Virus record (IMG/VR): IMGVR_UViG_3300019890_000006
Coordinates: 1-47,478 of that record
DNA length: 47,478 nucleotides
Strand: one strand, 5' to 3'
From: a virus
A program made the position numbers and the translations under genes. A model generated the notes under the pieces. The model did not search any database and was not told the DNA's origin. It was given only the letters and a program-made list of their open reading frames with translations. Shown here one piece after another: positions 30,313-44,796 of the stretch. The stretch's first letter is position 1. The number at the start of each line of letters is the position of its first letter.

Positions 30313-30341
30313 ACTATAGGGAGGTTTCTATAGAATGTCAA
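30313..30341 (-). promoter_or_regulatory. Leftward sigma70 promoter
   Basis: Read on the minus strand: TTGACA (30341-30336), 17 bases, TATAGT (30318-30313). Near-consensus. Drives 30271 leftwards. The stop codon of the upstream membrane protein overlaps the -35. Confidence 0.75.
30314..30333. promoter_or_regulatory. CTATAG-N8-CTATAG operator, site 1
   Basis: CTATAG at 30314-30319 and 30328-30333. The first overlaps the -10 and the second the upstream part of the spacer of the leftward promoter. The same spacing recurs at two other promoters. Confidence 0.6.
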
Positions 30342-38805: not shown

Positions 38806-39282
38806 ATGAAGCTAGATATGTGGGCGTCAAGGTGGGGAGTGTCGGAAATAGCTTTAGATGATTTACGTAAAACGTTCGGCCTTGCACAATTGGAAGTGGT
38901 AGAGAATGACATACAAAAGTCCGAGGCCGCACTAGTAAACTTAATACGAATCGAGGCAAGTAAAAAAGGTTTAAGGGTATGGCGCAATAATGTAGGGGCG
39001 GCACAAATGCCCGACGGTAGCTTTTTGCGCTATGGCCTTGCTAACGAATCGGGAAAGATGAACACATATATTAAGTCCGCCGACTTAATAGGCATACGAC
39101 CCGTTAAAATAAGGTCGCCTATGGTGGGTATGACGATAGGCCAATTTGTTAGCCGTGAAGTTAAGGCGAGCGATTGGAAATATAAAGGAACAGACCGAGA
39201 ACGTGCACAACTCCGCTGGATTGAAGTTATTAACGGCATGGGTGGTGACGCGTGCTTTGCTAATCAAGAGGGGACTTTATGA
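38806..39282 (+). CDS. VRR-NUC domain nuclease
   Basis: 158 aa; AAGGAG before the ATG. The second half fits VRR-NUC: RVWRNNVGAAQMPDGSFLRY, SADLIGIRP, the catalytic ExK in REVKASDWK, and AQLRWIEVINGMGGDACFA. The family acts on branched or flap DNA structures. The N-terminal 45 residues are helical and variable. ATGA overlap with the next gene. Confidence 0.85.
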   Translation: MKLDMWASRWGVSEIALDDLRKTFGLAQLEVVENDIQKSEAALVNLIRIEASKKGLRVWRNNVGAAQMPDGSFLRYGLANESGKMNTYIKSADLIGIRPVKIRSPMVGMTIGQFVSREVKASDWKYKGTDRERAQLRWIEVINGMGGDACFANQEGTL

Positions 39283-39808: not shown

Positions 39809-40114
39809 ATGAGAGAACGTAAAGACCCTACAGAGCGAAAACAAGAACTATTAGAAGTGGCGATTCAATTAGCAAAAGAAACCGGTTATAGCCACATTAC
39901 ACGTAACGAGATTGCACGCCGTGCAGGTGTGGCGTATGGTTTAGTTACATCCTATTTTAAGACCATTGATAACCTAAAGAAAATGGTGGTTAAGGAGGCC
40001 ATAAAACAAGAAATAGTACAAATAATAGCAGAAGCACTCGCGAGAAAAGAACCTTTAACGAGAAGGCTAACTCCCGCCCTCCGGGAGAAAGTTATTCGTT
40101 ATTTATCAAAATAG
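39809..40114 (+). CDS. Short TetR-type transcriptional regulator
   Basis: 101 aa. The first 60 residues are a standard TetR HTH: RKQELLEVAIQLAKETGYSH, ITRNEIARRAGVAYGLVTSY, FKTIDNLKKMV. TetR proteins are usually near 200 aa; the C-terminal ligand domain is almost wholly missing, leaving about 40 residues. It may therefore dimerise weakly or act as a constitutive repressor. The four TGACCG-type palindromes in this genome look like TetR operators. It probably times early expression, shutting it off as the protein builds up. Confidence 0.85.
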   Translation: MRERKDPTERKQELLEVAIQLAKETGYSHITRNEIARRAGVAYGLVTSYFKTIDNLKKMVVKEAIKQEIVQIIAEALARKEPLTRRLTPALREKVIRYLSK

Positions 40115-42466: not shown

Positions 42467-42669
42467 TAATCAGTATTTATAAATGCGATATGTGTAAAAA
42501 AGAGTTTAGAGACGCTAAAAGTATGTACGAACCTAAAAACGGCCTGTGTATGGAAATACGCGGGCTACTCAAAGCTAGGTTTAAAATAAACGAAACATGC
42601 GTCGGGTGCTTCGAATCTATACGCAACACAATACATAAAGCAGTAACGGATATGATTGTAGTTGACTAA
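42463..42669 (+). CDS. Small zinc-binding protein, 68 aa
   Basis: ATGA overlap with the replicase. YKCDMCKKEFRDAKSM and TCVGCFESIR provide two CxxC pairs. Unknown. The next promoter's -35 overlaps its stop codon. Confidence 0.65.
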   Translation: MIISIYKCDMCKKEFRDAKSMYEPKNGLCMEIRGLLKARFKINETCVGCFESIRNTIHKAVTDMIVVD

Positions 42670-42690
42670 CTATAGATGGTCGCCTATAGT
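42662..42690 (+). promoter_or_regulatory. Rightward promoter with CTATAG operator
   Basis: TTGACT (42662-42667), 17 bases, TATAGT (42685-42690). Serves the single small gene at 42723. Confidence 0.7.
42670..42689. promoter_or_regulatory. CTATAG-N8-CTATAG operator, site 2
   Basis: CTATAG at 42670-42675 and 42684-42689, extended to seven-base arms (ACTATAG / CTATAGT). Same register relative to the -10 as the other two sites. Confidence 0.6.
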
Positions 42691-42866: not shown

Positions 42867-43250
42867 GCACGTGTTGAGGTCTGGGTCACAATGCAGCATA
42901 TCATCGCGTTTGACCCATTCACTATGATCTCTAGGTATAACGTTGTGAATTTTAGAAGTTTTAAAGACTAACCAGTTTTCCGGTTGATCTTCTTGCGAGT
43001 AATAGCAATCCACGATTCCTACTGACCCAATTTTATAGGCGTATAAATCCCTTAAAAACAGGCTCGTTGACGTGGTTAGATTGAGGTAACTTACTTGATT
43101 AAATACCGTGGTACTACCGTTGACCATCTCACATCGTGATTTTTCCCCGGGCTTGCAATTGATTTGACTACCGCATGATGCACTACTGCCCGCTAGAGCA
43201 TTAAGGGTTAGAAGACTTGACGCGACGAGAATTAACACTTGTTTTAACAT
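42846..43250 (-). CDS. Exported protein A, 134 aa
   Basis: AAGGA before ATG 43250. A clear Sec signal peptide: KQ, then hydrophobic VLILVASSLLTLNALA and a probable cut ALA/GSS. The mature part has about seven Cys (SCGSQINCKPGEKSRCEM, DCYYS, LHCDPDLNTC), fitting periplasmic disulphides. Phage periplasmic proteins often act in superinfection exclusion or host envelope change; that is a guess here. Overlaps the HTH gene by 50 bases. Confidence 0.75.
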   Translation of the reverse strand: MLKQVLILVASSLLTLNALAGSSASCGSQINCKPGEKSRCEMVNGSTTVFNQVSYLNLTTSTSLFLRDLYAYKIGSVGIVDCYYSQEDQPENWLVFKTSKIHNVIPRDHSEWVKRDDMLHCDPDLNTCLLYVLY

Positions 43251-43422
43251 GGCTCGAAATCCTTTTCGACTGTTTGTTAATGTCAGTCTCCGGGATTAAA
43301 TAACTCTTACCACATTCACAATGATGTGCACCCGGAAAATGTCCTTGCTTGATTTTAGCATGGATTCTTTGTACACACACCCCGAGAAAGGCCGCCGCCT
43401 CTCTAGCGTTAAACTTCTTCAT
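43201..43422 (-). CDS. Excisionase/MerR-like HTH protein, 73 aa
   Basis: FNAREAAAFLGVCVQRIHAK then IKQGHFPGAH and SYLIPETDI is the winged HTH pattern of AlpA/excisionase-like proteins. Basic C-terminus (NSRRVKSSNP). No integrase is encoded, so a regulatory role is more likely than excision. It could be the protein that binds the CTATAG sites, but nothing in the sequence proves it. Confidence 0.75.
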   Translation of the reverse strand: MKKFNAREAAAFLGVCVQRIHAKIKQGHFPGAHHCECGKSYLIPETDINKQSKRISSHVKTSVNSRRVKSSNP

Positions 43423-43431
43423 CGTTAGCCC

Positions 43432-43830
43432 TTAAGTTATGTAAGCGTAATTATTATTCGCGCAGCTCGCTACTTTCTTACCCTCAAGCACAATTGTTGT
43501 TACAGCCCTTGTATAATACTGGCCGTTGGATTCCCATACCCGCTTATTGGTGAATCGTCTTATATCGACATAGGTTTGACCCGGGTTAACCATGATATTC
43601 AATGTTGTTTTATCATTGAACATATTCATTACTTCATGATAATAAGTAATCTTATAGCTCATGGGTATTGATGAATTATTCATGATTGACACGCCGTGAT
43701 CGCTAAAAAAATCACTCGGCATATTGCTATGCTGTGACAATATAACAGACATTGAGCATGTTGCTATTTCCACATTTGCCATTGCATTTGTTGCTATGAG
43801 CGCAGCCATAAGCGCTATTAATCTTTTCAT
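43432..43830 (-). CDS. Exported protein B, 132 aa
   Basis: AAGGA upstream of ATG 43830. Signal peptide MKRLIALMAALIATNAMA with AMA/NV cut site. Mature part beta-rich with two Cys (ATCSMSV, ASCANN), probably one disulphide. First protein gene after the RNA array and on the same transcript if no terminator intervenes. Unknown function; pairs with exported protein A. Confidence 0.75.
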   Translation of the reverse strand: MKRLIALMAALIATNAMANVEIATCSMSVILSQHSNMPSDFFSDHGVSIMNNSSIPMSYKITYYHEVMNMFNDKTTLNIMVNPGQTYVDIRRFTNKRVWESNGQYYTRAVTTIVLEGKKVASCANNNYAYIT

Positions 43831-43848
43831 ACTATAAAATCCTTTTCA

Positions 43849-43860
43849 TAGTGCTTTAAA
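43849..43860. repeat. Short direct repeat flanking RNA E, left
   Basis: TAGTGCTTTAAA; a near copy TAGTGCTTAAA lies at 44056-44066, overlapping the tRNA 3' end. The two flank the 43864-44045 RNA. Confidence 0.5.
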
Positions 43861-43863
43861 TAA

Positions 43864-44045
43864 ATGCCGTCTCTCCGCGCTGCCAAGCCTAGTTTACGGT
43901 CGTAAGTTCTCCGGCTTTCTAATAACCCTGTTAGCATCCCGTTTGCCCCCTTCCTTCCTAGGCGTCAGTTGGGCATCATCTAGTTTTTTAAGCTAGTCCT
44001 AGCGATCGAATCGTTTCGCTCGTGTGCCGCCGGTTCAGACGGCAT
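43864..44045 (-). ncRNA. Structured RNA E, 182 nt (unassigned)
   Basis: Nine-base perfect closing stem: ATGCCGTCT (43864-43872) with AGACGGCAT (44037-44045). On the minus-strand transcript, inner pairings include GCCTAG with CTAGGC, TTAC-GACC-GTAA, TAAC-AGG-GTTA, AGCGA/TCGCT, and TGCCC with GGGCA. The last interleaves with the GCCTAG pairing, giving a pseudoknot. No long reading frame crosses it. It does not look like tmRNA or RNase P RNA. Confidence 0.5.
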
Positions 44046-44055
44046 CGTCTGCGTT

Positions 44056-44066
44056 TAGTGCTTAAA
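44056..44066. repeat. Short direct repeat flanking RNA E, right
   Basis: TAGTGCTTAAA; partner of 43849-43860. Possible trace of insertion of RNA E next to a tRNA 3' end. Confidence 0.5.
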
Positions 44067-44136
44067 GAGGATGGGACTCGAACCCACGCGCACACAGTCT
44101 TTAGCTAAGCGCTCTACCCGACTGAGCTACCTCTTT
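44063..44136 (-). tRNA. tRNA-like gene, apparent anticodon AAA
   Basis: 74 nt. Seven-base acceptor AAAGAGG/CCTCTTT, D arm GCTC-AGTCGGGTA-GAGC, T arm GTGGG-TTCGAGT-CCCAT with canonical loop, five-base variable region, A73, CCA not encoded. The anticodon arm CTTAG-CTAAAGA-CTGTG has one mismatch and one wobble and places AAA at 34-36 (Phe UUU if read). A34 is unusual for a Phe tRNA, so the gene may be degenerate or have another role. Confidence 0.8.
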
Positions 44137-44139
44137 AAG

Positions 44140-44152
44140 CCATAAATTGGCG
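44140..44152. repeat. 13-base spacer repeat, copy 1
   Basis: CCATAAATTGGCG, identical to 44225-44237. On the minus strand it holds GCCA, the 3' tail of RNA C, and the AT-rich spacer to the next RNA. Confidence 0.7.
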
Positions 44153-44226
44153 GGAATCGGCGAAGAACCAACATCGCACTTCCCCGTCTTAACGGGGCGT
44201 CGTGGCACCGTTTGACTACGATTCCC
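44148..44226 (-). tRNA. tRNA-like RNA C, degenerate, with encoded GCCA
   Basis: 79 nt including GCCA. Eight-base acceptor GGGAATCG/CGATTCCC, a short D-like arm GTC/GAC, a strong anticodon-like hairpin CCCCG-TTAAGA-CGGGG with a six-base loop, and a T-like arm GCGA/TCGC with an odd ten-base loop. Size, acceptor and 3' CCA say tRNA; the loops do not fit a working one. Could be a decaying tRNA or a tRNA mimic. Confidence 0.55.
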
Positions 44227-44237
44227 ATAAATTGGCG
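44225..44237. repeat. 13-base spacer repeat, copy 2
   Basis: Identical to 44140-44152. Separates RNA B (GCCA end) from RNA C. The repeat suggests a common processing site or array duplication. Confidence 0.7.
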
Positions 44238-44362
44238 TCAGTTTGTAGGATTTCACTACTTAAGCACATTCACCTCTAGGTCGCTCACTCCTCTGGCTAC
44301 CATTTGCTAGAGGGCAAACTCGCCAACGAAGAGGGCCGACTATCACCTCGGCCTAAACTGAC
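44233..44362 (-). ncRNA. Structured RNA B, 130 nt with tRNA-like ends (unassigned)
   Basis: Eight-base closing stem GTCAGTTT/AAACTGAC (44355-44362 with 44237-44244) followed by GCCA, as in a tRNA. Next to the 3' strand is a T-arm-like hairpin GTAG-TGAAATC-CTAC. Inside: hairpin GGCCGA/TCGGCC (44334-44353), a longer stem CTCTTC..TGGC/GCCA..GAGGAG, and hairpin TTTGC/GCAAA. The latter's loop pairs over seven bases (44307-44313 with 44273-44279), forming a pseudoknot. Too long for any normal tRNA; no tag peptide frame is evident. Confidence 0.55.
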
Positions 44363-44369
44363 AAAATTA

Positions 44370-44482
44370 GTGTGAGGCGCTAGCTTAGATAAATAGGGAA
44401 GTTATCGCCTAGTCATCCACCCCCTCGGTAGTCCCTACGACCGGCACGACTCCTAAGTCGCTTTTCGCTCTGTGCCTCACAC
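44370..44482 (-). ncRNA. Structured RNA A, 113 nt, first in the array (unassigned)
   Basis: Nine-base closing stem GTGTGAGGC/GCCTCACAC (44474-44482 with 44370-44378). Hairpins: CGACT-CCTA-AGTCG (44447-44460), CGGT/ACCG (44426-44443) and GATAA/TTATC (44388-44406), all given as plus-strand letters. The loops of the last two are complementary over six bases (TCCCTA 44432-44437 with TAGGGA 44394-44399), a kissing interaction. The promoter at 44487-44515 would start transcription at or within two bases of its 5' end. Confidence 0.55.
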
Positions 44483-44486
44483 GCAA

Positions 44487-44515
44487 ACTATAGAACGTTA
44501 TCTATAGAGTGTCAA
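44487..44515 (-). promoter_or_regulatory. Promoter of the RNA array
   Basis: Minus strand: TTGACA (44515-44510), 17 bases, TATAGT (44492-44487). The expected start, 5-8 bases beyond the -10, is 44482-44479, the first bases of RNA A, so the RNA has no leader. It is one of the two near-perfect promoters in the genome. Confidence 0.75.
44488..44507. promoter_or_regulatory. CTATAG-N8-CTATAG operator, site 3
   Basis: CTATAG at 44488-44493 and 44502-44507, covering the -10 and spacer of the RNA array promoter. Same register as the sites at 30314 and 42670. Confidence 0.6.
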
Positions 44516-44796
44516 TATATTCCTCTGTCAAGTAATAAAGCTTTTAAGAACGCTTCGGCGGTCGCTAAATCGTCGGGGTGAATGCCTATCTTACTCATAA
44601 CCAGCCCTAAGCCATGATTAAGAGCTATCTTTCTAACTCTATCGGCATTGCGTTTAGAACGGTCTCTATTGCATTGGATGCATACGGCGCTCAAAGTGTA
44701 TCGAGCCGTCGTATGACCATTTTGACAAGGCGTCCCGGTATTGTAATATTTGTGACCATTTTGTACGGCTATTTCTCTGGGTGTTGGAAATATCAT
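44512..44796 (-). CDS. Zinc-ribbon protein, paralogue 1, 94 aa
   Basis: GHKYYNTGTPCQNGHTTARY, then CIQCNRDRS is the phage zinc-ribbon module often found next to or within HNH proteins (CxxGH...CxxC). C-terminal IHPDDLATAEAFLKALLLDR. TAATG overlap with the paralogue upstream. Its last codons overlap the RNA array -35. No HNH catalytic part is present, so it may bind DNA or RNA only. Confidence 0.7.
   Translation of the reverse strand: MIFPTPREIAVQNGHKYYNTGTPCQNGHTTARYTLSAVCIQCNRDRSKRNADRVRKIALNHGLGLVMSKIGIHPDDLATAEAFLKALLLDRGIY

Follow-up and report, generated by a model that had tools for sequence, protein, structure and literature searches.

The window analysed here, the whole of a linear IMG/VR virus record of 47,478 bases, encodes a large primase, a helicase, DNA polymerase A and a terminase, and belongs to a tailed phage. 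The isolates nearest to its primase are 44-46% identical, mostly phages of 42-50 kb, and include Klebsiella phage KpV52 (Jedunavirus), Pectobacterium PEAT2 and Shewanella SppYZU01; relatives of the terminase lie in Burkholderia, Xenorhabdus, Serratia and Acinetobacter genomes. Two minus-strand genes, 44512-44796 and 43432-43830, enclose a noncoding gap of 681 bases (43831-44511, 50% GC) in which the sole open reading frame of at least 40 aa is a 51-aa GTG frame. A first-pass annotation of this DNA had called the stretch gene-free, and no gene was found in it. The upstream gene, 44512-44796, belongs to PHROG 1081 (function unassigned) and has homologs at the same place in three related contigs, L020, L021 and L022.

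The stop codon TGA of this upstream gene overlaps the -35 box of a predicted phage promoter with a double operator (44487-44515, minus strand; TTGACA-CTCTATAGATAACGTTC-TATAGT). The promoter matches sigma-70 at 11 of 12 positions with a TTGACA-17-TATAGT spacing and follows the motif TTGAC-N3-CTATAG-N8-CTATAGT, in which two CTATAG boxes lie eight bases apart. Three copies of the full motif with zero mismatches occur in the window against 0.05 expected (30313-30341 on the minus strand, 42662-42690 on the plus strand and 44487-44515 on the minus strand), and the same motif, with small changes, occupies the same place in L020, L021, L022 and a further contig, L045. Together these copies form an apparent phage regulon as far as the sequences tell. 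A TetR_N-like protein (39809-40114) and the HTH_17 protein at 43201-43422 are candidate regulators of such CTATAG-box promoters. Given that the motif is shared by the window and its relatives, the array most likely opens a phage-regulated operon, which would run into the small genes 43432, 43201 and 42846. The first of these (43432-43830, minus strand) encodes a small Cys-containing protein of 132 aa with a signal-like N-terminus and a conserved CANNNYAY end; it has no Pfam or PHROG match and was found only in this small phage group. The second (43201-43422, minus strand) encodes an HTH_17/excisionase-like DNA-binding protein (Pfam PF12728, E 2e-7) that is conserved in relatives.

Perfect Watson-Crick closing stems of at least 8 bp that enclose 55-190 nt were sought on the minus strand, and their optimal combination without overlaps was taken as the tiling. 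For 43864-44482 the optimum is exactly five units, A (44482-44370), B (44362-44237), C (44226-44152), D (44140-44060) and E (44045-43864), with stems of 9, 8, 8, 11 and 9 bp respectively. The summed stem length of 45 compares with a mean of 6.4 and a maximum of 24 in dinucleotide shuffles, none of the 300 reaching 45. The first-pass annotation had proposed five closed units with stems of 7-9 bp; this stands for A to D, apart from the 11 bp of D, and is not supported for E as one closed unit, as set out below. It had also placed an encoded GCCA after B and C, and this follows the 8-bp stem of each; closing stems of at least 8 bp followed by NCCA occur at four sites in the whole window, two of which are B and C, in tandem. 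The spacers between units are AU-rich and 6-7 nt long, and the 13-base repeat noted earlier in the B-C and C-D spacers, CGCCAATTTATGG, lies at 44237-44225 and 44152-44140, its 12-mer core occurring twice. Fold z-scores against shuffles are -3.3 for A, -3.4 for B, -2.1 for C, -3.0 for D and -1.3 for E.

The only Rfam matches in the array are to tRNA, in C and D, and searches of A, B and E returned no match at E up to 10, in agreement with the earlier statement that these three belong to no nameable family. It is extremely unlikely that the whole stretch forms a single large RNA of the ornate GOLLD/ROOL type. Both GOLLD and ROOL are structured RNAs that phages carry close to tRNA islands, and tRNAs may lie in the linkers of GOLLD (PMC12286853), so the phage location of the array beside a tRNA would suit them. 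However, they are single RNAs of several hundred nt with covariance models of their own, and those models miss the array even at E up to 10. Moreover, closed units follow one another along the whole region and the pieces occur separately in relatives, so the doubt about GOLLD voiced in the first-pass annotation was justified.

A (113 nt, 44370-44482, minus strand) is closed by the 9-bp stem GTGTGAGGC/GCCTCACAC. The predicted transcription start, at about 44480-44482, coincides with the first bases of this stem, which would therefore seal the predicted 5' end of the transcript, and closed leaders occupy the equivalent position in L020, L021 and L045. B (130 nt, 44233-44362, minus strand) has an acceptor-like stem of 8 bp followed by unpaired GCCA and, next to this stem in the T-arm position, the arm GTAG-TGAAATC-CTAC. 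Two of its loops, CCTCTAG (44313) and CTAGAGG (44279), are a perfect 7-base complement, as the loop-loop pairing suggested earlier for B demands. The array-bearing genomes are uncultured contigs throughout, and the comparison set comprises one homolog each for C, D and the E3 part of E, and none for A and B.

C (79 nt, 44148-44226, minus strand) is tRNA-like, with an 8-bp acceptor, GCCA, a 3-bp D stem and, at the anticodon position, a stem CCCCG/CGGGG whose loop has 6 nt and not the standard 7. It scores 26.2 bits as tRNA, short of the gathering score of 29, so that the tRNA likeness claimed earlier for C and D holds above threshold for D and below it for C. Skipping-rope RNA (RF02924), on which a literature search gave nothing, resembles C in being about 80 nt long and closed by one stem, but C scores 18.8 bits against it (E 0.28), far under the gathering score of 36.7. 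Both in the window and in L045, the unit upstream of D ends in GCCA followed by a TTTATG spacer, both identical. The closing stem of C is GGGAATCG/CGATTCCC in the window and GGGCTATT(GG)/(CC)AATAGCCC in L045 (12095-12033); five of the eight closing pairs are changed on both sides and none is broken, in an alignment anchored by hand at the two conserved ends. Judged on these sequences, no other covariation in the set is as clear.

D (44060-44140, minus strand; tRNA core 44062-44137) is called by ARAGORN as tRNA-Phe with the nominal anticodon aaa and scores 54.6 bits as tRNA in Rfam, above gathering. It has a T arm and a 7-nt anticodon loop; its anticodon arm is weak, with a U-U mismatch and a wobble, its acceptor is paired for four extra base pairs, to 11 bp, and there is no CCA. 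L045 matches window positions 44154-44016 at 76% (E 1.2e-16). In the L045 copy 11 of 11 acceptor and 4 of 4 D-stem pairs are kept, and four pairs overall are changed on both sides; 98.4% of the alignment cells are paired compared with 35-60% when the partners are slid, a supportive but not final result, given that two sequences are compared and the shuffle control reaches about 5% at best. Covariation, which the first-pass annotation had proposed to look for and whose lack in the closing stems it took to speak against the array, was thus found in both C and D. The anticodon arm of D is not conserved between the two copies: in L045 it reads CCGG-TACG-CCGG, without a 7-nt loop, and this copy is not called by ARAGORN and still scores 53.6 bits as tRNA.

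Like ordinary tRNAs (RF00005), D has acceptor, D and T arms, C has a cloverleaf with encoded GCCA, and short AU spacers separate the units. When compared with a standard tRNA, however, these RNAs fail in two respects: first, a 7-bp acceptor with a free 3' NCCA is found neither in D nor in B and C, which have 8 bp plus GCCA. Second, a 5-bp anticodon stem with a 7-nt loop and a usable, conserved anticodon is found neither in D nor in C nor in the L045 copy of D, and C and the L045 copy have no standard anticodon loop. Given that the anticodon regions are either absent or not conserved, a decoding role is improbable. It is accordingly very unlikely that these are odd-structured working tRNAs, with D delivering an amino acid (Phe, aaa), aiding phage translation and possibly altered against anticodon nucleases: besides the defects of its anticodon stem, its long acceptor, the missing CCA and the loop lost in L045, its nominal anticodon aaa is, to our knowledge, not normally used by bacteria. 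What such a reading can draw on is the Rfam score of D, the 7-nt loop of the window copy and the fact that phage tRNAs resisting tRNA-cutting defence are known (PMC11455837).

The same features could be read as the decay of an ordinary phage tRNA cluster, in which C and D are pseudogenes and A and B are remnants with insertions, kept by chance. The ARAGORN call for D, the sub-threshold score of C, the poor anticodon arms and the quick turnover of phage tRNA clusters are all consistent with decay. This is nevertheless improbable, given that the acceptor, D and T stems are kept through double changes, that 34 identical nt lie beside D, that A and B fold better than shuffles, and that the anticodon arm of the L045 copy is re-paired and short (CCGG/CCGG), unlike the outcome of random decay. 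A further reading of D as a phage attachment site (attP) was rejected, as no integrase was found in the early genes scanned; the adjoining excisionase-like HTH leaves it some room.

The comparison with relatives indicates that E consists of two pieces, E5 and E3, and does not support it as one closed unit: the match to L045 ends at 44016, exactly where the match to another contig, L047, begins. E5 (44017-44053, minus strand; CGC..TGCCGTC-TGAACC-GGCGGCA..GCG; z -2.5) is a hairpin that travels with D. It is identical to L045 over 34 of 34 consecutive nt while the neighbouring protein is 76% identical, and in L045 it folds as a local hairpin. E3 (43858-44016, minus strand) is a conserved noncoding element of about 155 nt with a counterpart in L047 (966-1130), 86% identical over the last 86 nt (E 1.5e-24). 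In L047 the element stands by itself, flanked by two other genes, and the supposed closing stem has no partner there. The gene downstream of it is nuclease-like and, as read from translations, a homolog of window 38806-39282. One hairpin of E3 changes from CTAG/CTAG to TATCC/GGATA in L047 with an identical loop, CTTAAAAAA. The overall fold is not stable by energy (z +0.7 and +1.7). Because E3 precedes different genes in two phages it may be mobile, and because it has no stable predicted fold it may be something other than an RNA of the array type. The 9-bp stem joins E5 and E3 only in the window, where the closed form of E reaches -53.4 kcal/mol versus -46.9 kcal/mol for the local hairpin. This stem may be a local innovation of the window; no relative supports it, and the comparison of closing stems across relatives, on which the first-pass annotation had staked its five units, goes against E as it was drawn.

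The possibility that E is a coding remnant was also considered and rejected, given that no open reading frame covers it and that the substitutions in the 86% part are not spaced in threes. Directly after E, TTTATTTAAAGC (window 43850-43864) matches the start of a 58-aa gene of L045 near 11880, as though the beginning of this gene had given way to E3.

An order of promoter, variable slot and 43432-type gene is common to the window, L020, L021, L022 and L045, and among these five phages the slot holds from none to five units. In L022 it is empty, the promoter being followed by a ribosome-binding site and the gene. L021 carries one unit of about 73 nt, the outer stem of which begins 3 nt past the -10 box, and L020 carries one unit of 140 nt with the stem GGTGATTT/AGATCACC and a T-arm-like hairpin beside the acceptor, although the overall fold of this unit does not surpass that of shuffles (z -1.2). 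L045 holds an A-like unit closed by GAGGACTG/CAGTTCTC, a 29-codon open reading frame, a C-like unit, D and E5, and then the 58-aa gene, while the window has the longest set. The 29-codon frame of L045 (12170-12080, minus strand) contains CxxC pairs (MLNIMCPYCFGFGCAKCWYTGDYILWAIG), and its last codons double as the 5' strand of the closing stem of the C-like unit. The slot offers a comparative handle, since sister phages combine the same promoter and genes with different numbers of units, from none to several. That relatives keep the design and swap the pieces suggests, at the level of sequence, that the array RNAs are working RNAs.

The arrangement of the slot is also the ground for the main rival to a role in trans at a tRNA-related protein, namely that the closed units are leaders acting in cis, with a protective or regulatory effect on the mRNA for the small proteins encoded from 43432-43830 onward. 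A 5' end sealed in a stem at the start site would block 5'-end-dependent decay, a closed unit starts about 3-11 nt from the -10 box in four phages, and the single units of L020 and L021 lead directly into the ribosome-binding site of the gene. However, this is rather unlikely for three reasons: first, L022 has promoter and gene without any RNA unit, so that this gene does not need the RNAs to exist. Second, one sealing stem would be enough, and the GCCA ends and the compensatorily kept tRNA fold are left unexplained. Third, E3 precedes a different gene in L047.

The distribution of the array was followed by several searches. A blastn search of the region against phage records found no homolog in isolated phages, only 59 nt of the tRNA part were matched in plasmids, and there were no array homologs in 369 sampled genomes from the class of an Acinetobacter host, a search run without a positive control. 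A scan with gene 44512 alone found nothing; one with gene 43432 found L020-L022 only and then L045, and a search of genome contigs gave no copy of this gene. Exact patterns for E5 and E3 occurred only in L045 and L047. Applied to 1.28 Mb of related loci, covariance models for E3 (R1) and for D-E5 (R2) picked up ordinary tRNAs but no further family members. No such RNAs are annotated at the corresponding place in KpV52, PEAT2, SppYZU01 and LAPP1, whose primases are 44-46% identical. Noncoding gaps of promising size in more distant primase relatives (L003, L004, L006, L008, L009, L012, L014 and L015) proved, once read, to hold other repeats or probable unlisted coding and not array RNAs.

The closest precedent for the array is provided by RNAC and RNAD of T4, the species 1 and 2 stable RNAs, whose roles are stated as unknown (PMC3014915, PMC9697503, PMC12685909). 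At 139 and 119 nt they lie within the T4 tRNA operon, and the 3' end of RNAC is adjoined by a perfect tRNA T arm. Like the array RNAs they are small structured RNAs in a phage tRNA operon with spacers of a few nt, and A and B, beside C and D under one predicted promoter, resemble the T4 type as predicted structured non-tRNA RNAs in the range of about 75-180 nt. Given that structured stable RNAs are thus known from a phage tRNA cluster, the new class of noncoding RNA suggested in the first-pass annotation was too strong a claim (PMC3014915, PMC9697503). A, B and E nevertheless showed no relationship to the T4 RNAs by blastn, the R1 model found nothing in T4, and RNAC and RNAD lie beside eight decoding tRNAs whereas the only tRNA matches of the array are non-standard. 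A second comparison is offered by the pseudo-tRNA tRNA-Other of Bacillus cereus, which is tRNA-like, is not for translation and lies inside longer transcripts; unlike the array it is chromosomal, single and iron-responsive, and belongs to no array or phage operon (PMC3399842).

The anatomy of the locus can be stated with good confidence as that of an operon of tRNA-like, largely non-decoding RNAs. It is suggested, at somewhat less than an even chance for the whole, that this is a fast-changing operon whose RNAs would be processed by the host and would probably tie up a host protein involved in handling or attacking tRNA; the nature of that target, taken by itself, is a tentative proposal and open to considerable doubt. 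The phage-specific promoter would give one minus-strand transcript from the stem of A through B, C, D-E5 and E3 into the downstream small genes. Given the acceptor-like ends of B, C and D (the closing stems, the GCCA of B and C, the spacers and the T arm of D), tRNA-processing enzymes should excise these units, with RNase P acting on the 5' side together with 3' exonucleases and the CCA enzyme of the host. As with the products of a phage tRNA operon, each excised unit would then exist as a stable RNA of its own. B, C and D would be kept for tRNA shape and not for decoding, as the compensatory changes support for C and D and as is presumed for B, and the RNAs would act in trans by occupying a defence tRNase or an enzyme of tRNA processing or decay.

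A tRNA-related protein is preferred as the target because the parts that are kept are those that such proteins recognise, and the parts that are lost are those that decoding needs. Furthermore, close relatives gain and lose units quickly, as a contest with host defence would have it, and a decoy function is plausible on this analysis. Against the proposal stand the 11-bp acceptor of D and its missing CCA, which could hinder normal tRNA maturation, the 7-nt anticodon loop retained by the window copy of D, the small number of homologs, and the poor folds predicted for the L020 unit and E3. It is also possible, though doubtful, that the promoter-operator slot acts as a 'tRNA-mimic cassette' that collects and exchanges non-decoding tRNA-like RNAs together with mobile elements such as E3, the RNAs being cut out by host tRNA-processing enzymes and acting in trans against tRNA-directed defence or on tRNA metabolism. 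In L045, D would be a tRNA-shaped RNA kept by compensatory change after loss of its anticodon loop, and the slot makes testable the question of why phages carry tRNA-like RNAs unable to decode. If the decoy reading is true, these RNAs would do at the RNA level what counter-defence proteins do against tRNA-cutting immunity.

Two observations were made outside the array-bearing contigs. In a Ligilactobacillus murinus plasmid (NZ_CP040853.1 19089-19147), 59 bases that are unannotated in PLSDB are 80% identical to the tRNA region of D, and this is probably an ordinary plasmid tRNA. In PEAT2 (NC_044940.1 17300-18088), genes for a queuine tRNA-ribosyltransferase and a VUT family (YhhQ-type) protein adjoin the primase gene, and this pair of genes sits in the same region where the phage group of the window keeps its tRNA-like RNAs.
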